Position numbers and translations under genes: made by a program
In this document: piece after piece, positions 6,723 to 41,067 of the stretch
Position numbering within the stretch: position 1 is the first letter of the stretch
Layout of the letters: each line of letters begins with the position of its first letter
DNA from: Microvirga roseola
Lineage (GTDB): Bacteria; Pseudomonadota; Alphaproteobacteria; Rhizobiales; Beijerinckiaceae
Length of the DNA: 64,000 nucleotides
Assembly: GCF_020866965.1 (NCBI RefSeq)
Contig: NZ_JAJATX010000005.1
Location: 62,001-126,000 of the forward strand
Reading direction: 5' to 3'
The notes under the pieces: generated by a model
What the model was told of the DNA's origin: nothing
The model's database searches: none
What the model saw: the letters and a program-made list of their open reading frames with translations, nothing else

Positions 6723-6773
6723 GGACCACCTGCTCTCTACGCCCAAGAACTGACCCGCCAAAGGAGGAACGGG

Positions 6774-7208: not shown

Positions 7209-7281
7209 AGCCTCTCTACGAGCCCGGAAGCGGTACCGAACTAAGTTTCAGAAATCGCCAGGATAGTACTGGACATAAACA

Positions 7282-7295
7282 GTTGTTTGAACAAC
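7282..7295. promoter_or_regulatory. Inverted repeat upstream of the Opp operon
   Basis: GTTGTT-tg-AACAAC is a perfect 6+6 inverted repeat with a 2-base centre, 83 bases before the oppA-like ATG, in a relatively AT-rich patch of the 169-base intergenic region. A regulator site is plausible; the factor is unknown. Confidence 0.35.
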
Positions 7296-7377
7296 AAATA
7301 GGACAAGGTCGCTGCCTTATCGGCTTGGACCGAGGCATTTTTGGCTTCAAGAGAACAGCAAAAAGGGAACGCGTCTA

Positions 7378-19631: not shown

Positions 19632-19639
19632 GCAGACCT

Positions 19640-21134: not shown

Positions 21135-22153
21135 CCGATATGGCCGTCGATACCTCCGCGACCGCCGAGCTGCCGCGCACGAAGACGGACTGGCTTCCGC
21201 TTCTCCTCGTGCCGGCCCTCGCCCTCGCCGCCCTGCCCTTCGTCGGCAGCGGCTCGACCTGGGTCACGCTCACCGTGGCGGGTCTCGCCATGGGCATGAT
21301 GATCTTCCTGATGGCCTCGGGGCTGACCCTCGTCTTCGGCCTGATGGACATCATCAATTTCGGCCACGGTGTCTTCATCTCGCTCGGAGCCTACGCCACC
21401 CTCCTCGTCCTGGGGCCTCTGGCCGGCTGGGCAGCGGCGGAATCCCTCGGGCTGAACCTCGCCCTCCTGGGTCTCTGCATCGTCGCGGCCATGGCCGTGA
21501 CGGGGGTTGTCGGGGCGGTCTTCGAGCGGGTCATCGTCCGCCCGGTCTATGGCAGCCATCTCAAGCAGATCCTGGTCACCATGGGCGGCCTGATCGTGGC
21601 CGAGCAGGCCATCCACGCCATCTGGGGCGCCTCTCCGATCCCGATCCCTCTGCCGGAGACCCTGCGCGGGGCCTTCGTCTTCGGCGACATCGTCGTGGAG
21701 CGCTACCGGGTCGTCGCGGTCGGAATCGGCCTCGTCGTCTTCATCGGCATGCAGTTGCTGCTCAACCGCACCCGCATCGGACTCCTGATCCGGGCCGGGG
21801 TCGAGAACCCCGAAATGGTGGAGGCCCTGGGCTATCGGATTCGCCGCCTCTTCGTCAGCGTGTTCGTGGCGGGCTCTGCGCTGGCCGGTCTCGGCGGCGT
21901 CATGTGGGCCTTCTACCGCCAGACCCTCACCGCCGGCATGGGCATGGAGGTGATGGTGCTGGTCTTCATCGTCATCATCGTCGGCGGCCTCGGCTCCGTG
22001 GGCGGCTGCTTCGTCGGCTCGATCCTGGTCGCGCTGGTGGCGAACTATGTCGGCTTCGTCGCGCCGAAGCTGGCGCTCATCTCCAACATCCTCGTGATGG
22101 CCCTCGTCCTGATCTGGCGTCCGCAGGGCCTCTTTCCGGTAGCGCGCCGATGA
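21131..22153 (+). CDS. Branched-chain-type ABC transporter permease LivH (operon 1)
   Basis: A 340-residue permease with around eight membrane helices. The GLTLVFGLMDIINFGHGVFISLGAY segment is the LivH hallmark, and RAGVENPEMVEALGYRIRRLF is the ATPase-contact loop. Its N terminus carries about 15 extra hydrophilic residues. Overlaps the preceding ATPase gene and the following permease gene by ATGA junctions. Confidence 0.93.
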   Translation: MTDMAVDTSATAELPRTKTDWLPLLLVPALALAALPFVGSGSTWVTLTVAGLAMGMMIFLMASGLTLVFGLMDIINFGHGVFISLGAYATLLVLGPLAGWAAAESLGLNLALLGLCIVAAMAVTGVVGAVFERVIVRPVYGSHLKQILVTMGGLIVAEQAIHAIWGASPIPIPLPETLRGAFVFGDIVVERYRVVAVGIGLVVFIGMQLLLNRTRIGLLIRAGVENPEMVEALGYRIRRLFVSVFVAGSALAGLGGVMWAFYRQTLTAGMGMEVMVLVFIVIIVGGLGSVGGCFVGSILVALVANYVGFVAPKLALISNILVMALVLIWRPQGLFPVARR

Positions 22154-23265
22154 GCATGTCCTCCGCCCTCACACTCCCTCCCGACGAGACCCGCCGCAGC
22201 GGGTTCTTCAGCCGGATCCTCTCGTCGGATCCCCCGCGGTCGTGGGTCCTGAGCCTCATTCTGCTGGCCATCCTCCTGGTCCTCGCAGCAACCCCCTTCC
22301 TGTTCTCGGGAAGCCAGCCCCTCAGCACGGCGGCGAAGATCTGCGTCTTCATCGTTCTGGTCGCGAGCTACGACCTTCTGCTCGGCTATTCCGGCATCGT
22401 TTCCTTCGCCCACACCATGTTCTTCGGCATCGGCGGCTACGGCATCGCCATTGCGCTGGAGCAAATCGAGCCCACCTGGGCCTCAGCCGGGATCGGCCTT
22501 GTGGCAGCTCTTGCTCTCTCAGCCGTCCTGGCCGCCGCCATCGGCCTCCTGTCGCTGCGGGTCCGGGCGATCTTCTTCTCGATGATCACCCTTGCTGTCG
22601 CCTCCGCCGTCGCGGTGCTGGCCTCCCAGATGTCGGAGATCACGGGCGGCGAGGACGGCTTGTCGTTCCAGCTTCCCTTCGAGCTTCGCCCCGCCTTCCG
22701 CCCTCTCGAGGACCAGCTCTTCGGCGTCACGGTCAACGGGCGCATCCTCGCCTATTACCTGATCTTCTTCGTCGCGCTCTTCGTCTTCCTGCTTCTGCTG
22801 CGCATCGTGAACTCGCCCTTCGGGCGCGTGCTCCAGGCCATCCGCGAGAACGAGTTCCGCGCCGAGGCCCTGGGCTACCGGGTGGTCGCCTACCGGACTG
22901 CCGCCTCCGTGCTCTCGGCGCTCGCCGCGACGGTCGCGGGCGCGCTGATGGCCCTGTGGCTGCGCTATAACGGGCCCGATACGACCCTCTCCTTCTCGAT
23001 CATGATCGACATCCTGCTCATGGTCGTGATCGGCGGCATGGGGACCATGTACGGGGCCGTCATCGGCGCGACCCTGTTCGTCCTGGCGCAGAGCTACCTG
23101 CAGGTGCTCATGGCGGCCGGGAGCGAAGCCCTGGAGGGTATTCCGATCCTTCCCATCCTCATCCACCCGGATCGCTGGCTCCTCTGGCTCGGCGCCCTGT
23201 TCATCATCAGCGTCTATGCCTTCCCGGGCGGAATTGTCGGCCGCCTGAGGCAAGCGAAGCAATAA
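22150..23265 (+). CDS. Branched-chain-type ABC transporter permease LivM (operon 1)
   Basis: A 371-residue permease. LLGYSGIVSFAHTMFFGIGGYG and the contact loop IRENEFRAEALGYRVVAYR identify LivM. The ATG at 22150 overlaps the livH stop (ATGA); the frame is open further upstream only as a shadow of livH. It is the last gene of the first branched-chain-type operon. Confidence 0.93.
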   Translation: MSMSSALTLPPDETRRSGFFSRILSSDPPRSWVLSLILLAILLVLAATPFLFSGSQPLSTAAKICVFIVLVASYDLLLGYSGIVSFAHTMFFGIGGYGIAIALEQIEPTWASAGIGLVAALALSAVLAAAIGLLSLRVRAIFFSMITLAVASAVAVLASQMSEITGGEDGLSFQLPFELRPAFRPLEDQLFGVTVNGRILAYYLIFFVALFVFLLLLRIVNSPFGRVLQAIRENEFRAEALGYRVVAYRTAASVLSALAATVAGALMALWLRYNGPDTTLSFSIMIDILLMVVIGGMGTMYGAVIGATLFVLAQSYLQVLMAAGSEALEGIPILPILIHPDRWLLWLGALFIISVYAFPGGIVGRLRQAKQ

Positions 23266-27333: not shown

Positions 27334-27777
27334 TCATTCGGAACGCTGCACGATCGCCGTCGCCTCGATTTCGACCCGGGCCGCCTTCTCCACGAGGCGC
27401 ACGACCTGGACGAGCGCCATGGCGGGGTAATGGGTGCCGAACACCTCCCGGTAGGCCCGGCCCAGCTCGCGCAGATTGGCGAGGTATTCATCGATGTCGA
27501 CGACATACCATGTGAGCCTCACGAGATGCCGGGGCTGCGCGCCGCCCTCGGCCAGGATGGCGCAGATGTTGGTAAAGATCTGCCGCGCCTGTGCGACGAA
27601 GCCATCCGCGAAGACGCCGTTCTCGTCCCACCCGACGATCCCGCCGGTGACGAGCACACGGCCCTCGCCCATCATCCCGTTGGCATAGCCCTTCGGGACG
27701 GGCCAGTTTCGGGGGTGAAGGGTCTCGGGTCCGTCGTCGGATTCGAGTTTATCCGCTGAGCCCACAAAGGCGGTCAC
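27334..27777 (-). CDS. Rid family protein lacking the canonical arginine
   Basis: A 147-residue member of the RidA/YjgF/UK114 family, which includes enamine/imine deaminases. The fold is clear from GGIVGWDENGVFADGFVAQARQIFTNI and VRLTWYVVDIDEYLANL. At the position of the catalytic arginine of E. coli RidA (PARSCVEVARL) this protein reads PAMALVQVVRL, so the classical arginine is methionine; it belongs to another Rid subgroup. It is the last gene of the aryl-CoA operon, 20 bases after the acyl-CoA dehydrogenase gene. A role with enamine-type intermediates of 2-aminobenzoyl-CoA breakdown is an attractive inference. Confidence 0.85.
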   Translation of the reverse strand: MTAFVGSADKLESDDGPETLHPRNWPVPKGYANGMMGEGRVLVTGGIVGWDENGVFADGFVAQARQIFTNICAILAEGGAQPRHLVRLTWYVVDIDEYLANLRELGRAYREVFGTHYPAMALVQVVRLVEKAARVEIEATAIVQRSE

Positions 27778-27797: not shown

Positions 27798-29003
27798 TTA
27801 TTCGGCGGCCGTGCGGCTTGTCGCAGCGCGCTGGCCCTCCAGCATCTTCAGAAGCTCGCGGGCGATCACGATCTTCTGGACCTCGGTCGCACCCTCATAG
27901 ATGCGCAAGGCCCGGATCTCGCGGTAGAGCTCCTCGACCTTCACGCCCTTGGTGACGCCGAGTCCGCCGAAGATCTGCATCGCCCTGTCGATGACGGCTT
28001 GAGCGGTTTCGGTTGCCTGCATCTTCGCCATGGCGGCTTCGCGGGTGACCCGCTCTGCGCCCTGATCCTTGGTCCAGGCGGCGCGGTACACGAGCAGAGC
28101 CGCCGCATCGACCCCGGTCGCCATGTCGGCAAGTGCGCCTTGGGTCATCTGAAGGTCGGACAGGGGCGCACCGAACAGCTTGCGGGAGGAGGCATGGCTC
28201 AGGGCCTCGTCCATGGCCCGGCGCGCGAAGCCCAGGGCCGCTGCGCCTACCGTGGAGCGGAACACGTCGAGGGTCCCCATGGCGACCTTGAATCCCTCCC
28301 CCGGCCCGCCGACCCTTTGCGACAGGGGCAGCCGGCAGCCCTCGAAGCGCAGAGTCGCGAGAGGATGCGGCGCGATCACGTCGATGCGCTCTTGGACGGT
28401 CAGTCCCGGCGTCTCCGCATCGACCACATAGGCCGACAGCCCCTTCGCCCCCGGAGCCTCCCCCGAACGGGCGAAGACCACATAGTGGTCGGCAATCCCG
28501 CCATTCGAGATCCAGGTCTTCGCGCCATCCAGGCGGACGTGATCCGGCCCGTCGGGCGTTGCGGTGGTGCTCATGGCGGCCACGTCCGAACCGGCTTCCG
28601 GCTCCGAGAGCGCGAAGGCGGCAATGGCCTCGCCCCGCGCTACCGGCGGCAGGTAGCGGCTCTTCAGCTCCTCCGAGCCGAAGAGCGTGATCGGCCCCGT
28701 GCCGAGGCCCTGCATGGCGAAGGCAAAATCCGCCAGCCCGTCCCGATAGGCCAGGGTCTCGCGGGCAAGGCAGAGGGTGCGGACGTCGAAAGCGGGATAG
28801 AGCCCTCCATAGGCCTGCGGCACCACTGCCTTCAGCCAGCCGCCCTCGCCCAGTCTCCGCACGAGGCGGCGGCAGGAGGCATCAACGTCGTGGTGATCGA
28901 CCACGAGGCTGACCTCCTTCTCGGCCCAGGAAGCCAGAACTTCAGCGAAGCGCCGATGGCGATCCTCGAAGAACGGCCAGGAGAGAAAGCTTGCATCGAT
29001 CAT
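27798..29003 (-). CDS. Acyl-CoA dehydrogenase family protein
   Basis: A 401-residue flavoprotein that oxidises an acyl-Co[16 protein letters not shown] and [15 protein letters not shown] are the FAD/substrate signatures in the middle domain; the catalytic glutamate should be in [17 protein letters not shown] near the C terminus. The last ten residues are polar and variable. It starts 1 base from the crotonase stop, so the two are tightly coupled. In this operon it would oxidise a ring-derived (cyclohexenoyl or glutaryl-like) CoA ester. Confidence 0.92.
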
Positions 29004-29004
29004 C

Positions 29005-29841
29005 TCAATCCCCCTGGAAGACCGGCTTTTCCTTGGCGGCGAAGGCCCGGTAGGCGCGGGCGAAGTCTTCCGTTGTCATGCACAGGGCCTGCGCCACGGC
29101 TTCCGCCTCGATGGCTTCCTCCACCGACATGGCCCATTCCATGGCGAGCATCCGCTTCGTCATGGTGTTGGCATAGGTCGGGCCGGTGCCGATGGCGCGC
29201 GCGAGACCGCCGGCCTCGCTCAGGAGACTGCCAGCATCGGCAAGACGGCTGAAAAAGCCCCAGCGCTCCCCCTCCTCAGCCGACATGAAGCGGCCGGTAT
29301 AGAGCAGTTCCGAAGCGCGGCCTTGGCCGATGATGCGGGGCAGGATGGCGCAGGCTCCCATATCGCAGCCTGCGAGCCCCACTTTGTTGAACAGGAACGC
29401 CACCTTGGCGCCGGGCGCGGCAAGCCGAACGTCCGAGGCCATGGCGATGATCGCGCCGGCGCCCGCGCAGACGCCTTCGACAGCGGCGACGATGGGCTGA
29501 GGCGCGGCGCGCATCGCCTTCACCAGCTCCCCGGTCATGCGGGTGAAGGCGGTCAGCTCCTTGGTGTCCATCTCCACCAGCGGCCCGATGATCTCGAACA
29601 CGTCGCCGCCGGACGAGAAGTTGCCCCCTGCCCCGGTGATGACGATGGCCTTCACCTGATCGTCCTTGGCGCAGGCGTGAAAGAAATCCGTCAGCTCGCG
29701 ATAGCTCTCGAAGGTGAGCGGGTTCTTCTTTTCCGGCCGGTTGAGCGTGACGGTCGCAACGGGCCCGTCGACCGACAGCAGAAAGTGCCGGGGCTCGTAG
29801 GAAGCGAGCGGCAGGGTGACTGAGTTGGCGTAAGTCGTCAC
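29005..29841 (-). CDS. Crotonase-fold (enoyl-CoA hydratase family) protein without the usual catalytic glutamates
   Basis: A 278-residue crotonase superfamily member. The CoA-binding/oxyanion segments [20 protein letters not shown] and [15 protein letters not shown] are present. By hand alignment the two hydratase glutamates (GGGCELA and PEV motifs) are replaced: [12 protein letters not shown] and [14 protein letters not shown]. It is thus probably not a simple hydratase and may be a C-C or thioester hydrolase or isomerase. GTG at 29841 overlaps the MarR stop (GTGA), giving translational coupling; the open frame further upstream is antisense-free but out of the family. Confidence 0.87.
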
Positions 29842-30347
29842 GAGGCGTCTCCCACGATGGCGCGCCGGGCCGACCCTTTGGTCTTGGCGAGCAGGCGCAT
29901 GAGGTCCTTCTGGTCTTTCGGGGTCAGGTCCGCGAAGAGTTCGGCGATCCAGCCCTCGTGCTCCGCCGCCATAGCGCGGAACTCCGCCCGCCCGGCTTCC
30001 GTCAGGCTGACGACCTGCGCCCGCCGGTCGGTCGAGGAGACGCGTCGGTCGAGATGGCCCGAAGCCATGAGCCGGTCGACGAGACCGGTCAGGTTGCCGT
30101 TCGATACCATCATGCGCCTGGAGAGGTCGGACAGCGTCATGCCGTCGGGGGCCTTGTCGAGCTGAGCCATCAGGTCGAAGCGGGGCAGCGTCACGTCGAA
30201 GCTCTCGCGCAGGCGGCGGCGCACCTCGCCTTCGATGAGGGTGGTGCAGGTGAGAAGGCGAAGCCACAGGCGCAGCTCGTCCCGGTGGTGCTCCGGCATT
30301 TCGACCGCCTTGGTCTCGGCGTCGAGGGGGATCATCCTGTCGTCCAT
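29838..30347 (-). CDS. MarR family transcriptional regulator of the aryl-CoA operon
   Basis: A 169-residue winged-helix regulator. The recognition part is [19 protein letters not shown] with the wing [14 protein letters not shown] choose the ATG at 30347, since GGAGAG lies 7 bases upstream and it starts 1 base after the SDR stop; the upstream ATG at 30362 overlaps the SDR gene and lacks such a site. It lies inside the catabolic operon. MarR proteins controlling CoA-dependent aromatic pathways usually bind a palindrome and are released by the pathway aryl-CoA; the paired 18-bp palindromes at 33501 and 35315 are the obvious targets (inference). Confidence 0.9.
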
Positions 30348-30348
30348 G

Positions 30349-31116
30349 TCAGATCTCTCCACCGGCCACCACGATGGCCTGCCCGGTCACGGAACGGGCC
30401 TGCTCGCCGCAGAGCCAGAGCACGGTATTCGCAATCTCCGCCGGGTCGATAAGCCGGCCCTGCGGGTTGTGCCTCGTCAGCTCGCTTAGAGCTTCCTCGC
30501 GGCTGCGGCCAGTCTTCGCCATGATGGTCCTGAGGCTCTCCGCCACCAGATCCGTATCCGTGAAGCCGGGGCAGACGGCATTGACCGTCACGCCGGTTTT
30601 CGCAGTCTCGAGCGCGAGCGCCTTCACGAAGCCGATGACGGCGTGCTTGGAGGCGCAATAGGCGCTCACATAGGGATAGCCCTTGAGGCCTGCCGTGGAG
30701 GCCACGGCCACGATACGTCCGAAGCCGCGTTCGCTCATGGAGCCGAGGACCGCCTGCACTACGTTGGTGACCCCGAGGAGGTTCACGTCCAGCATGTTCC
30801 GGAACACTTCGGGACCGGACTTCAGGAAGGGTGCAGAGACCGCCGCGCCCGCATTGGCGATCATCAGGTCGATGGGGCCATACCGTTCGACGGCCTCATG
30901 CACGGCAGCCTGCACGGCCGCCATATCCGTCACGTCGGCCATGACGGCGGCATGGGCGTCGCCCGCGTTCAGAGCCTCGTCCAGAGAAGCGGGCTTGCGC
31001 CCGACGATGGTGACGGTGGCGCCGGCCTTCACAAGGGAGGCGGCCACCGCGCGTCCGATGCCCCGGCCGCCGCCGGTGACGAGGGCATGACGGCCCTTTA
31101 AGCTTTTCGTGCCCAT
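30349..31116 (-). CDS. SDR family oxidoreductase (3-hydroxyacyl-CoA dehydrogenase-like)
   Basis: A 255-residue NAD(P)-dependent short-chain dehydrogenase. Cofactor motif TGGGRGIGRAVA near residue 14, NAGAAVSAPF, and the catalytic YCASK tetrad tyrosine/lysine are intact. It is located between the monooxygenase (1 base upstream) and the MarR gene, all on the minus strand. In the pathway it would oxidise or reduce a hydroxyl/keto group of the de-aromatised CoA ester, in the manner of 3-hydroxyacyl-CoA dehydrogenase. Exact step not known. Confidence 0.9.
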   Translation of the reverse strand: MGTKSLKGRHALVTGGGRGIGRAVAASLVKAGATVTIVGRKPASLDEALNAGDAHAAVMADVTDMAAVQAAVHEAVERYGPIDLMIANAGAAVSAPFLKSGPEVFRNMLDVNLLGVTNVVQAVLGSMSERGFGRIVAVASTAGLKGYPYVSAYCASKHAVIGFVKALALETAKTGVTVNAVCPGFTDTDLVAESLRTIMAKTGRSREEALSELTRHNPQGRLIDPAEIANTVLWLCGEQARSVTGQAIVVAGGEI

Positions 31117-31117
31117 G

Positions 31118-33472
31118 TCATTCAGCAGCGAGAGGCTTCTCGCCGGCCTCCATCTTGAGTTCGGCCCGGGTCTTCGGCTTGGCCTTGATCTTGAGATCCT
31201 CGAGGTCCTGCCGGTCGCGCACGGAGTTTCGGACGATCTGATCCTTGCCCGCGAGATATTGCGGCGGACAGTGGATGTCGGTCGCGCCGTACCATGCCGC
31301 CGCCTTCATGGTGAAGAAGGGATCGACCAGATGCGGCCGGCCGAGCGCGACGAGATCGGCACGTCCGGCCGCCAGGATCGTATTGACCTGGTCCGCCGTG
31401 GTGATGTTGCCGACGCACATGGTGGCGACCTGCGCCTCGTTGCGGACCTGATCCGAGAACGGCGTCTGGAACATGCGCCCGTAGATCGGCCGCGCCTCGC
31501 GCACGGTCTGGCCCGTGGAGATATCGACGAGGTCGACGCCGTGCTCGGAGAAGGCGCGGGCGATCTCGACCGCATCCTCGCCAGTAACGCCGCCCTCGGC
31601 CCAGTCGGTGGCGGAAATGCGCACGGACATGGGCTTATTCGCGGGCCACACCTCCCGCATGGCGTCGAAGATCTCGAGCGGGAAGCGCAACCTGTTCTCC
31701 AGGGAGCCGCCGTACTCGTCCGTGCGGCGGTTGGTGAGCGGAGAGATGAAGCTCGCCAGCAGGTAGCCGTGGGCGCAGTGCAGCTCCAGCATGTCGAAAC
31801 CGGCGCGGTCGCCGCGCTCGGCTGCGGCCACGAACTGGCTCTTGACAAGATCCATATCGGCGCGGGTCGCCTGGCGCGGCACCTTGCTGTCGGGGAAGTA
31901 GGGAATGGGCGAGGCGGAGCAGATGTCCCAGGCCCCGGATTCGAGCGGGCGGTCGATGCCCTCCCACATGAGCTTCGTCGCGCCCTTTCGCCCCGCATGG
32001 CCGAGCTGGAGGCAGATTTTCGCCGCCGAGTTCGCGTGAACGAAATCGACGATGCGTTTCCAGGCCGCCTCCTGCTCCTCGTTCCACAGGCCGGTGCAGC
32101 CGAGCGTGATGCGGGCCTCCGGCGAGACGCAGGTCATCTCGGTGAAGATGAGTCCCGCGCCGCCCGTGGCGCGGGAGCCGTAATGGACGAGATGCCAATC
32201 GCCGGGAACGCCGTCCGTGGCCGAATACATGTCCATCGGGGACATGACGACGCGATTGGGCACCACCATGTCCCGCAGGCGGAAGGGCTGGAACATGGGG
32301 ACCTGCGGCTTCTCGACGGAGACATCGAAGCCGCTCGCCTTCACTTGGCTCGCGAAGGTCTTGTCGACGGCCTCCACGAAATCCGGCGCGCGCAGGCGCA
32401 GATTGTCGTAGGTGATGGCCTTGGCGCGGGTCATGACGCCGAAGGCGAACTGCACGGGATCGAAATCCCAGAAGCGCGCCACATGCTCGAACCACACCAG
32501 CGACACGTCGGCGGCGTGCTGGGTCTTCTCCACCTCCTCGCGGCGTCCCGTCTCGTAGAGCGAGAGCGCACCCTCGACGGTGGAATCGCGGCGGAAGGCC
32601 TCGTAGAGCGCAATCGCGTCCTCCATGGCGAGCTTGGTGCCCGACCCGATGGAGAAATGCGCGGAGGCCTTGGCGTCGCCCAGGAGCACCTTGTTGCCCA
32701 TGACCCAGCGCTTGTTGCGGATCATCGGGAAATTGCGCCAGATCGAGCGGTTGGTGAGGACCTTGTGGCCGTTGAGGAACCAGCCGAAGATCCGCTCCAT
32801 CAGCGCCGCCGACTCCAGCTCGCTCATCCGGTCGAGGCCGGCGCGGGCGAAGGTCTCGGGGTCGGTCTCGAAGACCCAGGTCGAGCGGTTCGCCTCGTAC
32901 TGGTAGGCGTGGGCGATGAACGGGCCCCACTCGGTCTCCTGGAAGATGAAGGTGAAGGCGTCGAGCGGCCGTGTCGAACCCATCCAGGCGAACTTGTTGG
33001 GGCGAAGATCCACCTCCGGCTGGAAGTGCTCGGCATAGCGGTCGCGGAAGCGGCTGTTGATGCCGTCCGCCACCACCACGAGGTCGGCATCGCTGAACAG
33101 GCTCTCGTCGTCCACGTCCACGTCGTAGCGCAGCTTCACGCCGAGCTCGGCCGCGCGGTCCTGCAGGATGAGGAGCAGCGTGCGGCGCGAGCAGCCGCAG
33201 AACCCGTTGCCGCCGATGCGGTGTTCGCTTCCCTTGAAGTGGATGGCGATGTCGTCCCAGTAGGCGAATTCGCGCGTGATGCGCTGATAGCTCGGCAGGT
33301 CGTGCTTTTCGAAATTGTCGAGGGTGGCGTCGGAGAACACGACGCCGAAGCCGAAGGTCTCGTCGGCGCGGTTGCGCTCATAGACCGTGATCTCCGCCTC
33401 CGGACGGAGCTTCTTCATGAGGATCGCGAAATAAAGTCCCGCGGGGCCGCCGCCGATGATCGCCGTTTTCAT
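31118..33472 (-). CDS. Bifunctional flavin monooxygenase / old-yellow-enzyme reductase acting on an aryl-CoA (2-aminobenzoyl-CoA or salicylyl-CoA type)
   Basis: A 784-residue fusion. Residues 1 to about 385 are an FAD aromatic hydroxylase ([10 protein letters not shown] at 6-15; later [11 protein letters not shown] and [14 protein letters not shown]). Residues from about 394 are an NADH:flavin oxidoreductase of the old yellow enzyme family ([47 protein letters not shown]). This architecture is that of 2-aminobenzoyl-CoA monooxygenase/reductase of Azoarcus evansii and of proteins annotated salicylyl-CoA 5-hydroxylase. It would hydroxylate and reduce the CoA-activated ring without oxygenolytic cleavage. 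First gene of its operon; palindrome 33501-33518 lies 29 bases upstream. Confidence 0.92.
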
Positions 33473-33500: not shown

Positions 33501-33518
33501 TATTTTAAGCTTGAAATA
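33501..33518. promoter_or_regulatory. 18-bp palindromic operator, copy B (upstream of the monooxygenase)
   Basis: TATTTTAAGCTTGAAATA fits the symmetric pattern TATTTNAAGCTTNAAATA perfectly, mismatched only at the two N positions. It lies 29 bases before the monooxygenase ATG (minus strand), where a repressor would cover the promoter or transcript start. The same pattern recurs at 35315-35332. Assignment to the MarR protein of the operon is inference. Confidence 0.75.
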
Positions 33519-33548
33519 ACTGCCGATCAACCGTGGCAGGCTGCCGTC

Positions 33549-35198
33549 CTATGCGCTCGCGGCGAGACCCGGCCTGCCCTGCTCCTGCGCCATGCGGCGC
33601 AACGCGAAGCGCTGGAGCTTGCCAGTCTGCGTGCGCGGCAGAGCCTCCACGAATTCGATGATGCGCGGATACTTGTAGGGGGCGATCTCGGCCTTCACGT
33701 GATCCTGGAGCGCCTTGGTGAGGTCGGCGCCCGGCGCGTGGCCGGAGCGCAGGACCACATAGGCCTTCACGACCATGCCCCGTCCGTCGTCCGGGGCGCC
33801 GACCACGCCGCATTCCGCAACCGCCGGATGTGTCAGGAGCGCAGCCTCCACCTCGGGCCCCGCGATGTTGTAGCCCGACGAGATGATCATGTCGTCGGAG
33901 CGCGCCTGATACCAGAAGTACCCGTCCTCATCCATGAGATAGGTGTCGCCGGTGACGTTCCAGCCGTTCTGGACATACTTGGCCTGCCGCTCGTCGGCGA
34001 GATAGCGGCACCCGGTCGGGCCGCGAACGGCCAAGCGGCCGATGCTCCCCGGCGGAAGCTCCCTTCCCTCCTCGTCCACCACCCGCGCCTCGTAGCCGGG
34101 GACCGGCTTGCCGGTGGCGCCGGGACGGATCTCCTCCTCCCGCGCGGCGATGAAGATGTGGAGCATCTCGGTTGCGCCGATGCCATCCATCAGCCGGATA
34201 TTGGTGGCGGCGCGCCACGCCTCGTAGGTACCCTTCGGCAGCGGCTCTCCGGCGGAGACGCATTTGCGCAGGCTGGAAATGTCGTAGTTGTCGAGCTTCG
34301 AGAGCATGGCGCGATAGGCAGTGGGCGCCGTGAAGCAGATCGTCGCCTTGTACTGCATGATCGCGGGCAGGAGATCGTCCGGGCCCGCCTTCTCGAGAAG
34401 CACCGTCGATACGCCGATCCGCATGGGGAAGAGCACGATGCCGCCGAGCCCGAAGGTGAAGGCGAGCGGCGGCGAACCGATGAAGCGGTCTGTCGGCTCT
34501 GCGCGCAGCACGTTCTTCCCGTAGGCGTCGCAGATCGCCAGCATGTCGCGGTGGAAATGCATCGTGCCCTTGGGCTCGCCCGTGGTGCCCGAAGTAAAGC
34601 CGATGAGGCATACGTCATCCGCCGCCGTATCCACGGCCTCGAAGTCAGGCGGCACGTCCTCCATCAGACCTTCGAGATTGTCCGGCGCTCCCGAGCCCCA
34701 ATAGACGACGTGCTTTAGGTCGGGAGACAGCGCCTTCGCACGCTCCATCTCATCCGCGAGGCGGTGGTCGCAGAAGGCGATGGCGATTTTCGCCTTAGCG
34801 ATCGGATAGGCGATCTCCCTCGCACGCAGCAGCGGCATGGTGGCGACGACGACGCCTCCGGCCTTGAGCACCGCAAGATAGGTCGCCACCATCATCGGGT
34901 TGTTGGCGGAGCGCAGCAGAACCCGGTTGCCCGGCACGAAGCCGAGCTTCTGGACGAGCACGTTGCAGATCCGGTTCACCCGCTCCTGAAGCTGGCGGTA
35001 GGTGAGCGTCTCGGCGGGACTGATCAGACAGGGCTCGTCGCTCCTGCCCTCCCGGACCCAGCGGTCGAGAAACTCCGCAGCGCAGTTGAGGCGGTCCGGG
35101 TACTGCAGCTCCGGCCGGTCGAACAAGAAAGTCGGCCAAAGGCCTGGAGGCGGAAGGTTGTCCCTCGCGAAGGTGTCGACATGAGCCGTGTACGCCAT
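33549..35198 (-). CDS. Aryl-CoA ligase, 2-aminobenzoate-CoA ligase type
   Basis: A 549-residue AMP-forming acyl-CoA synthetase that activates an aromatic acid with CoA and ATP. The P-loop FTSGTTGEPKGT is at about 202-213, then MDGIGATEML, the hinge region TGDTYLMDEDGYFWYQARSDDMI and the catalytic lysine in PRTQTGKLQRF near the C terminus. The N terminus (VDTFARDNLPP) resembles proteins annotated as 2-aminobenzoate- or benzoate-CoA ligases. Pairing with the monooxygenase/OYE fusion supports 2-aminobenzoate over benzoate, but salicylate cannot be excluded. It reads towards the monooxygenase and away from the Liv operon. Confidence 0.9.
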   Translation of the reverse strand: MAYTAHVDTFARDNLPPPGLWPTFLFDRPELQYPDRLNCAAEFLDRWVREGRSDEPCLISPAETLTYRQLQERVNRICNVLVQKLGFVPGNRVLLRSANNPMMVATYLAVLKAGGVVVATMPLLRAREIAYPIAKAKIAIAFCDHRLADEMERAKALSPDLKHVVYWGSGAPDNLEGLMEDVPPDFEAVDTAADDVCLIGFTSGTTGEPKGTMHFHRDMLAICDAYGKNVLRAEPTDRFIGSPPLAFTFGLGGIVLFPMRIGVSTVLLEKAGPDDLLPAIMQYKATICFTAPTAYRAMLSKLDNYDISSLRKCVSAGEPLPKGTYEAWRAATNIRLMDGIGATEMLHIFIAAREEEIRPGATGKPVPGYEARVVDEEGRELPPGSIGRLAVRGPTGCRYLADERQAKYVQNGWNVTGDTYLMDEDGYFWYQARSDDMIISSGYNIAGPEVEAALLTHPAVAECGVVGAPDDGRGMVVKAYVVLRSGHAPGADLTKALQDHVKAEIAPYKYPRIIEFVEALPRTQTGKLQRFALRRMAQEQGRPGLAASA

Positions 35199-35508
35199 CG
35201 TCCGCTCCTCTGGTCTTGATTTTTTTTGCGGGAGACCTTGCCGTGAGCACCGGTCACGTCTCCGTCAGCCCGCCTGTCTTCCTCTGCGGAATCCGCTTGA
35301 AGAAATCTTAAAATTATTTAAAGCTTCAAATATTGCTTGGCAATCCCAAACATGGGGATGCGGGCAACCGGCTCGAACGAAAGGAGTGTTCGGCAGGCTC
35401 AAATTACGGCAGAGTACCGCCGACCTCGGCAGAGGCCACAAGGTCCGCCGGAGACAATCACGCAGCACGGCACACCGTGCGCAGGGAACAGCCATTCGGG
35501 AGTTCATG
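35199..35508. promoter_or_regulatory. Divergent regulatory region between the aryl-CoA ligase and Liv operon 2
   Basis: About 310 bases without a gene. The middle third (35300-35345) is distinctly AT-rich and contains the palindrome at 35315-35332 and a smaller TTGC-ttg-GCAA repeat at 35333-35343. Both flanking genes should be transcribed away from this region. A GGGAG ribosome site sits just before the Liv binding-protein start. Outside these I see no further structure. Confidence 0.7.
35315..35332. promoter_or_regulatory. 18-bp palindromic operator, copy A (ligase / Liv operon divergent promoter)
   Basis: TATTTAAAGCTTCAAATA matches TATTTNAAGCTTNAAATA with the same 16 fixed positions as copy B at 33501-33518. 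Position is central in the divergent region, 117 bases from the ligase start and about 177 from the binding-protein start. Two exact occurrences of a 16-position AT-rich pattern within 2 kb of a GC-rich genome, both in promoter regions of one pathway, point to a common regulator. Confidence 0.78.
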
Positions 35509-36684
35509 ATGAAACTGACTGTCAAAACCCTTGGCCTCGCGGCCGCCTTCAGCATCGCCGCCGTACCGGCCCTGGCGCAGGAAAAGGTGAAGGTCGGCCT
35601 GCTGCTGACCCTCTCCGGCCCGTCGGCGGTTCTGGGCCAGCATGCGCGGGACGGCTTCCAGCTCGCCCTGAAGGATCTCGGCAACAAGCTCGGTGGCCGC
35701 GAGGTCGAACTGATCGTCGTCGACGACGAGCTCAAGCCCGACGTTGCCGTGCAGAAGGCGAAGGGCCTCGTCGAGCGCGACCAGGTCGACTTCGTGGTCG
35801 GGCCGATCTTCTCCAACGTGGCGGTCGCCACCCACAAGCCGATCACCGACTCCAAGACCTTCTACATCAGTCCCAATGCCGGCCCGTCGAACCTCGCCGG
35901 CAAGAGCTGCGACCCCTACTTCTTCGCGACGTCCTACCAGAACGACCAGAACCACGAGGTTCTGGGCAAGGTCGCCGAGAACCGCGGCTACAAGCGCGTT
36001 TATCTCCTCGCCCCGAACTATCAGGCGGGCAAGGATGCGCTCTCGGGCTTCAAGCGGCACTACAAGGGCGAGATCGTCGAGGAATCCTACGTTCCGCTCA
36101 ACACCCTCGACTTCCAGTCGGAGCTCGCCAACATCGCGGCGCTGCAGCCGGATGCGATCTTCACCTTCATGCCCGGCGGCATGGGCGTGAACCTCGTCAA
36201 GCAGTACCGCGCGGCGGGCCTTGCGGATCGCGTGCCGTTCCTCTCCGCCTTCACGGTCGATGAATCGACGCTGCCGGCGCAGCAGGATGCGGCGCTCGGC
36301 ATGTTCGGCGGCTCCAACTGGGCTCCGAACCTCGACACGCCGCAGAACAAGAAGTTCGTGCAGGACTACGTTTCGGCCTACAATTCCGTGCCGGCCTCCT
36401 ACGCCATGCACGCCTACGATGCGGCGCTCCTCATCGACAGTGCCCTCAAGGCGACGGGCGGAAAGACCGACGACAAGGAGGCCCTGCGCGCCGCCCTCAA
36501 GAAGGCGGACTTCAAGTCCCTGCGCGGCGACTTCAAGTTCGGCGCAAACAACTTCCCCGTTCAGGACTTCTACCTCGTGAAGGTCGGAAAGCGCGACGAC
36601 GGCAAGTTCCAGACCGAGATCGTCGAGAAGGTGTTCGACGATTACGCGGACGCCTATGCGAAGGAATGTGCGGCGACGAACTGA
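35509..36684 (+). CDS. Branched-chain-type ABC transporter substrate-binding protein (operon 2, aromatic acid uptake)
   Basis: A 391-residue periplasmic binding protein with signal peptide ending VPALAQEK. VGLLLTLSGPSAVLGQHARDGFQLAL begins the first lobe; the type I fold is as in LivK and in binders of aromatic acids. Two ATGs abut (35506 and 35509); the second has better spacing (6) from GGGAG. It is transcribed divergently from the aryl-CoA ligase with palindrome A in between, so it probably imports the pathway substrate. A bulged hairpin follows the gene. Confidence 0.92.
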   Translation: MKLTVKTLGLAAAFSIAAVPALAQEKVKVGLLLTLSGPSAVLGQHARDGFQLALKDLGNKLGGREVELIVVDDELKPDVAVQKAKGLVERDQVDFVVGPIFSNVAVATHKPITDSKTFYISPNAGPSNLAGKSCDPYFFATSYQNDQNHEVLGKVAENRGYKRVYLLAPNYQAGKDALSGFKRHYKGEIVEESYVPLNTLDFQSELANIAALQPDAIFTFMPGGMGVNLVKQYRAAGLADRVPFLSAFTVDESTLPAQQDAALGMFGGSNWAPNLDTPQNKKFVQDYVSAYNSVPASYAMHAYDAALLIDSALKATGGKTDDKEALRAALKKADFKSLRGDFKFGANNFPVQDFYLVKVGKRDDGKFQTEIVEKVFDDYADAYAKECAATN

Positions 36685-36828: not shown

Positions 36829-37749
36829 ATGACCGCAACCCTCCTTCTGATCCAGACCCTGAACGGCCTTCAGTTCGGCCTCATCCTGTTCCTGATCGCC
36901 GCCGGGCTGACGCTGGTCTTCGGCGTCATGGACTTCATCAATCTGGCGCACGGCGTCCAGTACATGATTGGCGCCTACCTGATCGCGGCCTTCAGCGCGT
37001 GGACAGGCAGCTTCGGCTGGGGGCTCGTCCTCGCCCTTCCGACGGCGCTGGCCTTCGGGCTTCTTCTCGAAGTGCTCATCTTCCGTCATCTCTACGAGAG
37101 GGATCACCTCGATCAGGTGCTCGCCACCTTCGGCGTGATCCTGTTCCTGAACCAGGGCGTGAAGTTCGTCTGGGGCGCAGCCCCCCTCAGCGTGCCGGTG
37201 CCGGAGATCCTGTCGGGCTCCGTCGAGATCGCGGACGGGCTGCTCTATCCGGTCTATCGCCTCGCCATCATTGCGGCGGGCCTCCTCGTCGCCGCCCTGC
37301 TCTACGTGCTCGTCAATTACACCCGGGTCGGCATGCTGGTGCGCGCGGGCGCAACGAACCCGCAGATGGTGTCGGCGCTCGGCGTCAACATCAAGCGGCT
37401 GTTCATGATCGTCTTCGGCTTCGGAGCCATGCTCGCGGGCTTTGCGGGCGCCATGGTCGCCCCCATCCTCTCGGTCCAGCCCGGCATGGGCGACAACATC
37501 CTCATCCTGGCCTTCGTGGTGATCGTGATCGGCGGCATCGGCTCGATCCGCGGGGCCTTCCTGGCGGCGCTCCTGATCGGCCTCGTCGACACCATCGGCC
37601 GCTCCTTCGCCCCGAACCTGCTCAGGCTCGTTCTCGACCCTTCGGCGGCGAGCCAGACCGGACGGGCGATTGCGCCGATGCTCATCTACATCTTCATGGC
37701 GGCGGTGCTGTTCTTCCGCCCCTCCGGCCTGTTCCCGGTGAAAAGGTAA
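36829..37749 (+). CDS. Branched-chain-type ABC transporter permease LivH (operon 2)
   Basis: A 306-residue permease with eight or so membrane helices. GLTLVFGVMDFINLAHGVQYMIGAY is the LivH hallmark and RAGATNPQMVSALGVNIKRLF the ATPase-contact loop. It follows the binding-protein gene after 144 bases containing the hairpin, and the next gene begins 9 bases after its stop. Confidence 0.93.
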   Translation: MTATLLLIQTLNGLQFGLILFLIAAGLTLVFGVMDFINLAHGVQYMIGAYLIAAFSAWTGSFGWGLVLALPTALAFGLLLEVLIFRHLYERDHLDQVLATFGVILFLNQGVKFVWGAAPLSVPVPEILSGSVEIADGLLYPVYRLAIIAAGLLVAALLYVLVNYTRVGMLVRAGATNPQMVSALGVNIKRLFMIVFGFGAMLAGFAGAMVAPILSVQPGMGDNILILAFVVIVIGGIGSIRGAFLAALLIGLVDTIGRSFAPNLLRLVLDPSAASQTGRAIAPMLIYIFMAAVLFFRPSGLFPVKR

Positions 37750-37758
37750 CGCGCGGCC

Positions 37759-38790
37759 ATGACGGAACTCACCGGAACGCAGACAGCCCCGGCGCCCTCC
37801 TCGGGCATGCGGATCGACATCATCCCTATCATTCTGTTCGCCGCCTTTGCCGCCGCCCCCCTCTTGGCCTCCGCCTCGGGTGCGGAGGGATATGTCCTCT
37901 CGCTCCTCACCCGCGTGATGATCTTCGGCCTTGCGGCCATGTCGCTCGATCTCATCCTCGGCTACGGCGCGCTCGTGAGCTTCGGGCATGCGGCCTTCCT
38001 CGGCATCGGGGCCTATGCCGTCGGCATCCTGGCGAGCCATGGGGTGGAGGACGCGCTGATCCAGATCCCGGTCGCGCTCGCGGCCTCCGCCCTTTTCGCG
38101 CTGGCGACGGGCGCGATCTCGCTGCGGACGAAGGGGGTCTATTTCATCATGATCACCCTCGCCTTCGCGCAGATGCTGTTCTTCCTCGCCACATCCCTTG
38201 GACCCTATGGCGGCGACGACGGCATGACGCTCCCGACCCGCAGCCTCGTGGCGGGCGCCGGATTCCTGGAGAACGATTACGCCTTCTACGCCGCAACCCT
38301 CCTCTGCCTCATCGGGGCCTATCTGCTGTCGCGAGCCATCGTCACGTCGCGCTTCGGGCGCGTGCTGCGCGGTACGAAGGAGAACGCCGTGCGCATGGAG
38401 GCCATCGGCTTCCAGCCCTTCCGCTTCCAGCTTGCAGCCTATGTCGTCAGCGGCATGATCGCGGGACTTGCAGGCTGCCTCATGGCCAACCAGGCGGAGT
38501 TCATCAGCCCGGCCTTCATGACCTGGCAGCGCTCGGGCGAGCTGATCTTCATGGTGGTGCTCGGCGGGCTCGGCTCCCTGCATGGCGCGATCATCGGGGC
38601 CGCCGCATTCCTGCTCCTCGAGGAGTTCCTGCCGGAAATGCTTCATGCGGCGAGCTTCTTCCTGAACGACGACGTCCGCTGGCGGCTGACGGAAAACTGG
38701 CAGATGGCCTTCGGCCCCATCCTGATCCTGATCGTGCTGTTCGCCCGAGGCGGCATCATGGGCGTGTTGCGGAGAGGTTCCCATGGCTGA
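37759..38790 (+). CDS. Branched-chain-type ABC transporter permease LivM (operon 2)
   Basis: A 343-residue permease. LILGYGALVSFGHAAFLGIGAYA and TKENAVRMEAIGFQPFRFQ identify LivM. The C-terminal third has an extended segment (FLPEMLHAASFFLNDDVRWRLTENWQ) typical of permeases in aromatic-acid uptake systems. The gene overlaps the following ATPase gene by 8 bases. Confidence 0.93.
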   Translation: MTELTGTQTAPAPSSGMRIDIIPIILFAAFAAAPLLASASGAEGYVLSLLTRVMIFGLAAMSLDLILGYGALVSFGHAAFLGIGAYAVGILASHGVEDALIQIPVALAASALFALATGAISLRTKGVYFIMITLAFAQMLFFLATSLGPYGGDDGMTLPTRSLVAGAGFLENDYAFYAATLLCLIGAYLLSRAIVTSRFGRVLRGTKENAVRMEAIGFQPFRFQLAAYVVSGMIAGLAGCLMANQAEFISPAFMTWQRSGELIFMVVLGGLGSLHGAIIGAAAFLLLEEFLPEMLHAASFFLNDDVRWRLTENWQMAFGPILILIVLFARGGIMGVLRRGSHG

Positions 38791-39538
38791 GCCCCTGCTC
38801 GAACTGCGCTCCCTGCGGAAGGCTTATGGCGCGCTCGCCGTCACGGACGACGTGAGCCTGTCCATCAGGCCCGGCGAACTGCACGCCATCATCGGCCCGA
38901 ACGGTGCAGGCAAGACGACGCTGATCCACCAGATTTCCGGCATGCTGCCTTCCGATTCCGGACAGATCCTGTTCGATGGGGAGAACGTCACCCATCTCTC
39001 CATGCCCCAGCGGGTAAGGAGAGGGCTCGCCCGCTCGTTCCAGATCACCTCGATCCTGCCGGGCTTCTCGGCGCTCGAAAACGTGGCGCTCGCAGTCCAG
39101 GCGCGGCACGGCTCGAGCTTCCGCTTCTTCGGCAACGCGGCACAGGAGCAGGCGCTGAACGAGCCCGCCATGCAGCACCTGAACACGGTCGGGCTCGGTG
39201 GCCGCGCCAGCATCCCTGCGGGTCTTCTCTCTCACGGCGAGAAGCGGCAGCTCGAACTTGCCATCGCGCTGGCGACGGAGCCGAAGCTTCTCCTGCTCGA
39301 CGAGCCTCTGGCGGGCACCGGCCATGAGGAATCCCTGCGGGTCGTCGAAACGCTGCGGCGTCTGAAGGGGCGCATCACCATCGTGCTGATCGAGCACGAC
39401 ATGGACGCGGTGTTCTCGCTCGCCGACCGGGTCAGCGTCGTCGTCTATGGCCGCGTGATCGCAACCGATACACCCGAAAGCGTAAGGGCGAACGAGGACG
39501 TGCGCACCGCCTATCTCGGCGAGGAGGAAACGGTCTGA
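38783..39538 (+). CDS. Branched-chain-type ABC transporter ATPase LivG (operon 2)
   Basis: A 251-residue ATPase. Walker A GPNGAGKTTLIHQ, GLARSFQITSILPGFSALEN, degenerate signature LSHGEKRQLELAI and Walker B LLLDEPLAGTGHEE. LivG-type. The Walker B tail has TGHEE where most LivG proteins have N or M after G, a small deviation. It ends sharing one base with the LivF start (TGATG). Confidence 0.93.
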   Translation: MAEPLLELRSLRKAYGALAVTDDVSLSIRPGELHAIIGPNGAGKTTLIHQISGMLPSDSGQILFDGENVTHLSMPQRVRRGLARSFQITSILPGFSALENVALAVQARHGSSFRFFGNAAQEQALNEPAMQHLNTVGLGGRASIPAGLLSHGEKRQLELAIALATEPKLLLLDEPLAGTGHEESLRVVETLRRLKGRITIVLIEHDMDAVFSLADRVSVVVYGRVIATDTPESVRANEDVRTAYLGEEETV

Positions 39539-40236
39539 TGCTCACCGTGCGCCAGCTCCAGGCATCCTACGGGGCAGCCCAGGTCCTCTTCGACATCTCG
39601 CTCGATGTCGGCGCAGGCGAAGTCGTGACACTGCTCGGCCGCAACGGCATGGGCAAGACCACCACCGTGCGCTCCATCATGGGCCTGCTGCGCCCGCGCG
39701 GCGGCGAGATCCGCTTCGACGGCGTCGCCGTGACGGGGCTCGCACCCTATCGCGTGGCGAAGGCGGGCATCGGGCTCGTGCCGGAAGGGCGGCAGATCTT
39801 CCCGACCCTGACGGTGGAGGAGAACCTCGTTGCGACCGCATCCGCCCGCAGCGGCGCCCGGCGCTGGACGCTGGATTCGGTCTATGAGCTCTTCCCGCGC
39901 CTGAAGGAGCGGCGCGGCAATCTGGGAACGCAGCTCTCCGGCGGCGAGCAGCAGATGCTCGCCATCGGGCGCGCGCTGATGACGAACCCGAAGCTCCTCA
40001 TCCTCGACGAAGCGACGGAGGGTCTGGCACCCCTGATCCGCGCGGAGATCTGGTCCTGTCTCAAGCGGCTTCGCGGCGAGCAGCAATCCATCCTGGTGAT
40101 CGACAAGAACGTGGATGCGCTGGCAGGCTTCGCCGACCGGCATGTCATCATCGAGAAAGGCCGCTCGGTCTGGACCGGCACGAGCGCGGAGCTGGTGGCC
40201 GATGCAGGCCTCAAGGACCGGTATCTCCACGTCTGA
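39538..40236 (+). CDS. Branched-chain-type ABC transporter ATPase LivF (operon 2)
   Basis: A 232-residue ATPase. Walker A GRNGMGKTTTVR, signature LSGGEQQMLAIGRAL, Walker B LLILDEATEGLAP. In the switch region the usual Q/E-x-N is VIDKNVDAL, consistent with LivF. ATG at 39538 overlaps the previous stop by one base. The formamidase-like hydrolase gene follows 12 bases later. Confidence 0.93.
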   Translation: MLTVRQLQASYGAAQVLFDISLDVGAGEVVTLLGRNGMGKTTTVRSIMGLLRPRGGEIRFDGVAVTGLAPYRVAKAGIGLVPEGRQIFPTLTVEENLVATASARSGARRWTLDSVYELFPRLKERRGNLGTQLSGGEQQMLAIGRALMTNPKLLILDEATEGLAPLIRAEIWSCLKRLRGEQQSILVIDKNVDALAGFADRHVIIEKGRSVWTGTSAELVADAGLKDRYLHV

Positions 40237-40248
40237 ACGGGGCGCAGC

Positions 40249-41067
40249 ATGGTGAGCGACATCGACTTCGAGGCGGAATACAACAACCGGGCCCGCGTTC
40301 CCGATCATCCCGCCCACATCGCAGGCTGGCAGCGGGATGCCGCCACCTACCGCGAAAAGGCCTCCTGCGAACTCGATCTCGCCTATGGGCCGGGCGAGCG
40401 CCACCGGCTCGACCTGTTCCACCCGCCCGGCGGCGACAGCGGCGGCCCCGTCGTTCTGTTCATTCATGGCGGCTACTGGCAGGCCTTCGACAAGTCGTCG
40501 TCCAGCCACCTCGCGCGCGGGGCGAACGAGCGGGGGCTAATGGTCGCCATACCGAGCTACGATCTCGCCCCCTCCGTGAAACTCGCCGACATCGTCGCAG
40601 AGATCGAAGCGGCGGCGGATTTCGTCATGCAGCGCACCGGCCGCCCCCTCGTTGCAACCGGTCACTCGGCGGGCGGACACCTTGCCGCCTGCCTCATGGC
40701 GCGGCGCACGCCTGCGCCGATGCCGGTGCGGTCCGCCATGCCGATCTCCGGCCTCTTCGACCTCGCGCCTCTCATTCCGACTTCGATCAACCGGGCGCTC
40801 GGGCTCGACGAGGGTGAGGCTCGTGAGATGAGTCCCCTCGCCTGGGATCCTCCGGCAGCTGGTCGCCTCGTCGCCGTGGTCGGCGGCGCAGAGAGCAGCG
40901 AATTCCTGCGCCAGTCGCACAGCATCGTCGAGGGCTGGGGCAAGGCGGGCGTCGCCACGCGCTACCATGAAGTGCCGGGTGCGCATCACTTCGACGTGAT
41001 CGCCGGGCTCGCGGAGCCTGCGGACCCGCTCGTCGGTATTCTCGTGGATCTTGCCGCGGACGCTTAG
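40249..41067 (+). CDS. Alpha/beta hydrolase resembling kynurenine formamidase (arylformamidase)
   Basis: A 272-residue alpha/beta-hydrolase. The N-terminal AEYNNRARVPDHP, the oxyanion motif HGGYWQAFDK and the nucleophile elbow GHSAGGHLAA are those of animal/fungal-type N-formylkynurenine formamidases; a late aspartate and the histidine in PGAHHFDVI complete the triad. No signal peptide. As the last gene of Liv operon 2 it would release an aryl amine, such as anthranilate or kynurenine, from its N-formyl form, feeding the 2-aminobenzoyl-CoA route. The family similarity is good; the physiological substrate is inferred. Confidence 0.82.
   Translation: MVSDIDFEAEYNNRARVPDHPAHIAGWQRDAATYREKASCELDLAYGPGERHRLDLFHPPGGDSGGPVVLFIHGGYWQAFDKSSSSHLARGANERGLMVAIPSYDLAPSVKLADIVAEIEAAADFVMQRTGRPLVATGHSAGGHLAACLMARRTPAPMPVRSAMPISGLFDLAPLIPTSINRALGLDEGEAREMSPLAWDPPAAGRLVAVVGGAESSEFLRQSHSIVEGWGKAGVATRYHEVPGAHHFDVIAGLAEPADPLVGILVDLAADA

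Follow-up and report, generated by a model that had tools for sequence, protein, structure and literature searches.

A conserved palindrome as putative operator of a MarR-family regulator of 2-aminobenzoyl-CoA genes in Microvirga roseola and its relatives

In this study, we analyzed a stretch of 64,000 nucleotides of Microvirga roseola (contig NZ_JAJATX010000005.1, positions 62,001 to 126,000 of the forward strand), hereafter the window, which carries genes predicted to take up 2-aminobenzoate (anthranilate) and to degrade it through its coenzyme A (CoA) ester. Two matching 18-bp palindromes lie among these genes (Table 1). Both are likely operators of the MarR-family regulator encoded in the same cluster which, judging from sequence comparison, would repress anthranilate uptake and 2-aminobenzoyl-CoA catabolism and be released by an ester or acid of the pathway.

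A previous reading of the sequence alone had proposed that one palindrome precedes the catabolic operon and the other lies in the divergent region between the ligase gene and a Liv-type transporter operon, that the MarR gene is inside the regulated operon, and that the two sites define a MarR regulon. Both 18-mers indeed fit the pattern TATTTNAAGCTTNAAATA with 0 mismatches, and 8 of 9 pairs are symmetric in each, the non-complementary pair being the two N positions in both. Gene coordinates place the sites as proposed: site 1 is 28 bp upstream of the monooxygenase ATG (33472, minus strand), within the 76-bp gap past the ligase gene, and site 2 is 116 bp upstream of the ligase start (35198, minus strand) and 173 bp upstream of the position where the binding-protein gene probably starts (35506, plus strand). 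By position, the MarR gene is third in the operon, after the monooxygenase and short-chain dehydrogenase genes, which suggests that it is a member of it. At up to 3 mismatches, these two matches are the only ones in the window (100 shuffles gave a mean of 0.01). In the whole genome (5,082,216 bases), the same threshold returned 2 places, and 1 for the pattern read backwards; about 6e-6 exact matches were expected genome-wide from a dinucleotide model derived from the window sequence. As only two matches exist genome-wide, the objection that the pattern is scattered at random fails. The pattern had also been offered as a search string for further regulon members: it served this purpose in relatives, and returned no more matches in its own genome.

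Promoters of relatives were collected from loci chosen by their MarR gene, not by the motif. A promoter was considered readable when the gene start fell within 25 residues of the query start, with an identity floor for each gene (others were dropped), and when the gap to the previous query gene was at least 70 bp and the sequence at least 120 bp long. Promoters were labelled ACMR (monooxygenase/reductase), LIG (ligase), SBP (substrate-binding protein) and SDR (short-chain dehydrogenase). Among the 118 readable promoters of 69 MarR-centred loci of the same family, 76 had a site at 2 mismatches or fewer, namely 36/44 for SDR, 21/32 for ACMR, 15/19 for SBP and 4/23 for LIG. In many of these loci, the ligase gene lies after the acyl-CoA dehydrogenase gene, without a site of its own. 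Counted by locus, 45 of the 57 with a readable promoter had a site at up to 2 mismatches and 51 at up to 3; six (L033, L050, L052, L054, L064 and L072) had none at up to 3. Loci of named organisms (Microvirga, Bradyrhizobium and others, the best 80 among the matches listed) gave sites at up to 2 mismatches in 106/258 promoters and 61/80 loci, and at up to 3 in 75/80 loci. Eighteen loci were also fetched for monooxygenase genes with previously unseen promoters. Their 17 monooxygenase promoters carried the site in 9 cases at up to 2 mismatches, 11 at up to 3 and 17 at up to 4, and their sole ligase promoter had it at 4 mismatches. In every promoter set, 100 permuted control palindromes, permutations differing from the motif by 4 letters or fewer being excluded, found zero promoters at up to 2 mismatches. 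With such near-copies kept, 200 permutations gave a mean of 0.24 promoters at 1 mismatch, two near-copies scoring 28 and 20. The 61 non-redundant sites (preselected at up to 3 mismatches) have the consensus TATTTTAAGCTTAAAATA. All of them keep the inner TT and AA, the two halves are conserved to a similar degree, and more variation is seen in the centre, AAGCTT. The pattern first proposed is exact for the two window sites, and has to be widened to this form, with its looser centre, across relatives.

Presence of the site was also compared with presence of the MarR gene across genomes. In a sample of 149 genomes of the family, with homologs called at E 1e-25 or better for MarR and 1e-150 or better for the monooxygenase, MarR was detected in 63, the monooxygenase in 61, and both in 59. 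A site at 0-1 mismatch was present in 35 of the 63 MarR-bearing genomes and in 0 of the 86 MarR-less genomes (Fisher p 4e-17); the reversed pattern reached this level in 3 of the 149. At 2 mismatches, sites were found in 57 of the MarR-bearing genomes. In a phylum-wide draw of 398 genomes (strong MarR match, E below 1e-30; six weaker genomes omitted), 29 had both MarR and site, 43 MarR only, 19 the site only and 307 neither; 14 of the genomes matched the reversed pattern. Within the class (135 genomes of the draw), the respective numbers were 28, 26, 6 and 75. The proposed MarR regulon is supported by the confinement of 0-1 mismatch sites to MarR-bearing family genomes and by the fact that, among relatives, the sites recur at the promoters of corresponding genes.

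Site 1 covers the -10 element of a predicted promoter, TTGATC-17-TAAAAT (1 found in the consensus scan vs 0.3 expected in shuffles). At site 2, TTGCCA is followed by AT-rich, -10-like hexamers facing the ligase gene, an arrangement not listed by the stricter promoter scan. Two sets of non-redundant relatives showed a TTG at the -35 distance in 20/29 and 46/56 monooxygenase promoters (66/85) and in 3/5 and 49/49 ligase promoters (52/54), the maxima for shifted TTG controls being 5/29 and 10/56, and 1/5 and 26/49, respectively. This spacing was not seen at SDR (3/40, 4/30) or SBP promoters (2/15, 0/48). Sequence comparison thus establishes the sites, their tie to MarR and to the pathway genes, and their overlap with predicted promoters. 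We infer from it that MarR is the binder and acts as a repressor, and what the inducer molecule may be. Bound as a dimer, MarR would cover the -10 elements upstream of the monooxygenase and ligase genes, blocking RNA polymerase, and would also occupy the region shared with the Liv promoter. The operon, MarR gene included, would be held off by the repressor, in a way that is self-limiting if the MarR gene belongs to the operon. Once anthranilate is imported or made, the ligase would form 2-aminobenzoyl-CoA, and this molecule, another CoA ester of the pathway or the free acid would bind the repressor and release it. By analogy with proteins such as CouR (see below), the inducer is probably a pathway CoA ester.

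For targets away from the MarR stretch, sites were accepted at 0-1 mismatch except where noted, because chance matches occur at 2 mismatches, and as these loci were selected by the motif they are given as places, with no test count. Such sites lie ahead of Liv operons (L102, L104-L106, L110, L112, L114, L121, L127, L128) and of monooxygenase genes (L111, L116, L120, L122, L125, L131, L132). Six loci found in one genome each (L108, L123, L124, L126, L129, L134) were left out of the regulon members. In L109 and L113, two genomes of one genus, a site lies at divergent beta-oxidation genes. Two further genes are candidate members: a PRK07538-type monooxygenase dependent on flavin adenine dinucleotide (FAD), with sites free of mismatches in five genomes from a single genus, and a luciferase-like monooxygenase behind the operator in three genomes of one genus and in L319, from another family. 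The luciferase-like loci are L115, L118, L119 and L319, and a flavin reductase gene comes next in L119. The FAD monooxygenase gene is present in 70 of 189 MarR-centred loci that were not chosen by the motif (69 from the family, 80 named, 40 selected by hand).

One group of these places concerns tryptophan. Four genomes, from two genera (L103, L107, L130, L133), have a site at 0-1 mismatch between the gene for tryptophan 2,3-dioxygenase (in L103, TIGR03036 at 405.2 bits for a cut-off of 390.7) and a divergent gene for a class-V pyridoxal phosphate (PLP) enzyme. These are 4 of 36 dioxygenase-bearing genomes; a fifth, G058, has the site at 2 mismatches, which makes at least five in all. Against the Pfam kynureninase C-terminal model (cut-off 27), the PLP gene passes in L133 (39.2) and just misses in L103 (26.6), where no NCBI kynureninase model matched either, so that it is a candidate kynureninase at most. 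Among the 189 MarR-centred loci, tryptophan 2,3-dioxygenase is within the fetched stretch of 14; in L063 and L060, that stretch is the one of the anthranilate-CoA cluster. A formamidase-like hydrolase is present in 39 of the 189. In 23 of these 39, all among the 80 named loci and mostly Bradyrhizobium, it is directly 3' of the MarR gene, and nine other hydrolase loci have a site at up to 2 mismatches within 300 bp upstream of the hydrolase. Through kynureninase, the dioxygenase pathway turns tryptophan into anthranilate, an indirect argument for 2-aminobenzoyl-CoA rather than salicylyl-CoA as the substrate.

Several observations weigh against the reading of the sites as MarR operators of an anthranilate pathway. 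In the family, 28 of the 63 MarR-positive genomes have no site at 0-1 mismatch, and six have none at up to 2. Sites at 2 mismatches also occur in 13 of the 86 MarR-less genomes, the reversed control giving a chance background of 39/149. Outside the Alphaproteobacteria, the operon is kept, the exact motif mostly is not (1/18 genomes, with the site on another contig) and MarR and site are no longer linked. Beside the tryptophan 2,3-dioxygenase gene, 32 of 36 dioxygenase-bearing genomes have no site at 0-1 mismatch, and the dioxygenase gene of the window genome itself (C182) has none within 3 mismatches. The NCBI name of the monooxygenase is salicylyl-CoA 5-hydroxylase. Finally, MarR and the monooxygenase are nearly always found together, so that co-occurrence alone cannot part the regulator from the pathway.

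This almost perfect co-occurrence of MarR with the pathway genes is compatible with the sites serving some other pathway regulator and the embedded MarR having a different job. We consider this quite unlikely: every family genome with a 0-1 mismatch site holds MarR, the MarR gene is inside or adjoins the site-bearing cluster in most fetched loci, and possibly related palindromes, TACTTCAAGCATGAACTA and TAGTTCATGCCTGAAGTA (weak, 3-4 mismatches), precede ligases near paralogous MarR genes. Alternatively, the pathway may degrade salicylate or another aryl acid via its CoA ester, anthranilate esters not being the inducer, as the NCBIfam label and the many dioxygenase genes without a 0-1 mismatch site would have it. 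This is unlikely in view of the five genomes in which the same operator adjoins tryptophan 2,3-dioxygenase, of the linkage of the dioxygenase and the formamidase-like hydrolase to MarR-centred loci, and of the fusion of the monooxygenase with an old-yellow-enzyme (OYE) domain, which we take to be a hallmark of 2-aminobenzoyl-CoA monooxygenase/reductase.

Some SDR and SBP sites lie 100-261 bp upstream of the estimated gene start, as could suit a MarR that acts as activator or anti-activator and not as repressor. The position over the predicted -10 at ACMR and LIG promoters is that of a repressor, which makes this alternative very unlikely. As for chance palindromes or plain AT-rich promoter sequence, the right half of the site doubles as a -10 element and AT-rich stretches are common in promoters. 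Yet neither half is clearly better conserved than the other, control palindromes made by permuting the letters find nothing, SDR and SBP sites are conserved though mostly without -35 spacing, and exact matches are hardly expected in such a genome. A chance origin is hardly credible, and was rejected on the shuffles, the reversed pattern and the control palindromes, barring a bias in these controls. Repression by MarR of anthranilate uptake and 2-aminobenzoyl-CoA catabolism remains our preferred reading.

Table 1. Palindromes, predicted promoter and genes of the window discussed in the text.
Feature	Coordinates	Strand	Basis or sequence
Operator 1 (putative)	33501..33518	.	TATTTTAAGCTTGAAATA; upstream of monooxygenase operon, over predicted -10
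Operator 2 (putative)	35315..35332	.	TATTTAAAGCTTCAAATA; ligase/Liv divergent region
Predicted sigma-70-type promoter, monooxygenase operon	33502..33530	-	TTGATC-17-TAAAAT, consensus scan
RidA-family protein	27334..27777	-	Pfam PF01042
Acyl-CoA dehydrogenase	27798..29003	-	Pfam
Enoyl-CoA hydratase family protein (PRK08258)	29005..29841	-	461.5 bits, cut-off 330
MarR-family regulator, proposed repressor	29838..30362	-	Pfam MarR_2 and MarR over cut-off; winged-helix model; Foldseek
Short-chain dehydrogenase (SDR)	30349..31116	-	Profile matches
Fused FAD monooxygenase/OYE-type reductase, 2-aminobenzoyl-CoA monooxygenase/reductase type	31118..33472	-	NCBIfam PRK08255, FAD_binding_3, Oxidored_FMN
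Aryl-CoA ligase, benzoate-CoA ligase family (proposed 2-aminobenzoate-CoA ligase)	33549..35198	-	TIGR02262 381.4 bits, cut-off 375.25
ABC transporter substrate-binding protein, Liv type	35506..36684	+	Peripla_BP_6
Liv-type permeases and ATPases, four genes	36829..40236	+	Open reading frames named by reading; homologs adjoin site in relatives
Alpha/beta hydrolase, last gene of Liv operon, relative of kynurenine formamidase	40249..41067	+	PDB matches

On the minus strand, the genes follow each other in the order ligase, monooxygenase/reductase, SDR, MarR, enoyl-CoA hydratase, acyl-CoA dehydrogenase and RidA. The monooxygenase matches NF006101, the salicylyl-CoA 5-hydroxylase/oxidoreductase model of NCBIfam, at 1147.7 bits (cut-off 1078). 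The hydrolase that ends the Liv operon matches 2pbl (1.1e-46), the lipase 9n8r (1.4e-35) and the kynurenine formamidase 4e11 (8.5e-21) in the PDB, and stays under the cut-off of the NCBIfam HaHSL model. A further Liv-type transporter operon, which has a separate binding protein and other genes named by reading, occupies 18441-23265, and some 4 kb lie between its end and the catabolic operon; the window scan at up to 3 mismatches found no operator copy there.

In the window, the fused monooxygenase/OYE reductase stands beside a CoA ligase and beta-oxidation-type genes, the mark of an abm cluster. As is reportedly the case in abm clusters, the ligase and fused monooxygenase/reductase genes are grouped with those for enoyl-CoA hydratase, acyl-CoA dehydrogenase, SDR and RidA. 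We found no operator described for abm clusters, and Betaproteobacteria keep the operon with a diverged site. The abm clusters, of the Azoarcus evansii type, serve aerobic 2-aminobenzoate degradation, and in such aerobic pathways the CoA thioester is the proposed inducer of downstream enzymes (PMC8388817). In Arthrobacter sp. Rue61a, PaaX-related regulators lie near 2-aminobenzoyl-CoA genes (PMC3534580). The ligase and monooxygenase/reductase step is the same there and a pathway regulator is nearby, but the regulator is of another family, and the organism is an actinobacterium in which the genes are tied to quinaldine degradation. MarR control of aromatic-CoA pathways is already well known: CouR, FerC and HcaR are MarR repressors of hydroxycinnamate catabolism (PMC4737184, PMC5487221), and CouR is released by the CoA ester, not by the acid (PMC4737184). 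They share with the window a MarR protein set over an aromatic-CoA pathway via an inverted repeat, CouR and FerC answering to CoA esters. Close kinship with CouR was not found, as CouR (6c28) matched the window MarR at 4.3e-4, behind many MarR chains. In the open-access texts consulted, among them passages of PMC6449761, PMC13141888 and PMC10005059, neither an operator nor a MarR regulon is described for the 2-aminobenzoyl-CoA genes; the passages of PMC6449761 mention no MarR.

The MarR protein itself carries the signature of its family, with 44.6 bits for PF12802 (cut-off 27) and 38.9 for PF01047 (cut-off 24.6), and a palindrome is present at the promoter of the regulated operon, as is usual for MarR regulators. 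Its predicted fold is an ordinary winged helix (predicted local distance difference test, pLDDT, 83.7), and the top Foldseek matches of the model are MarR-type proteins, including MftR bound to operator DNA, MexR, MarR and 3boq. The nearest solved sequence is this last one, a MarR protein of Silicibacter pomeroyi (2.1e-23; 31% in the fold match). Judged by its MarR, the genome stands near Microvirga (Methylobacteriaceae). Paralogous MarR genes lie near other CoA ligases in L066, L067 and L068. L067 also has genes bearing pyruvate-ferredoxin-oxidoreductase and thiamine pyrophosphate (TPP) domains. The possibly related palindromes given above are ahead of the ligases of L067 (TACTTCAAGCATGAACTA) and L068 (TAGTTCATGCCTGAAGTA).

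Other MarR regulators touching on anthranilate are IadR and IadR2, which control indole-acetate degradation, the iad pathway ending in anthranilate (PMC9613470). IadR (7kfo) matches the window MarR at 3e-5 only. The Bradyrhizobium locus L323, which is iad-like, has two abutting MarR genes (6507-7483). PDB 7kym is matched by the first (1.3e-102); the second, IadR2-like, is a distant sequence relative of the window MarR (profile E 9.5e-33). That L323 is an iad locus, and 7kym the B. japonicum IadR of PMC9613470, is likely from that paper and from neighbour genes named by reading. The best PDB match of the IadR2-like protein is 3boq, which matches it better (2.4e-35) than it matches the window MarR. 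This one locus has no site of the window type, the best match having 6 mismatches. IadR2 is at best a doubtful ortholog of the window MarR: the likeness is distant, the common site is missing in L323, and the place of IadR2 in the tree is unsure (long branch). Two Bradyrhizobium-type genomes, L322 (8324) and L302 (8987), have an extra set of monooxygenase, acyl-CoA dehydrogenase and RidA genes with its own MarR, the site having 1 mismatch in L322 and 2 in L302; no dioxygenase is among the six L322 genes scanned by Pfam. This second MarR was rejected as IadR2, a site and a monooxygenase copy being present instead.

In bacteria of soil and roots, the degradation routes of tryptophan, kynurenine, indole and auxin converge on anthranilate. 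It is possible, and we propose it only tentatively from these sequences, that one old MarR family reads 2-aminobenzoyl-CoA, and that one operator coordinates the tryptophan/kynurenine-anthranilate route of Alphaproteobacteria, from uptake, CoA activation and dearomatisation to side oxidations by FAD and luciferase-like enzymes; IadR2 may be an offshoot reading a similar signal. A regulator whose operator is this precise and conserved supplies a string for genome searches, a promoter for reporter constructs and a candidate for sensing an aminoaryl-CoA. In a few genera it links the CoA route with tryptophan 2,3-dioxygenase, and it makes a concrete proposal on the IadR2 regulators, so far orphans in auxin degradation, open to testing.

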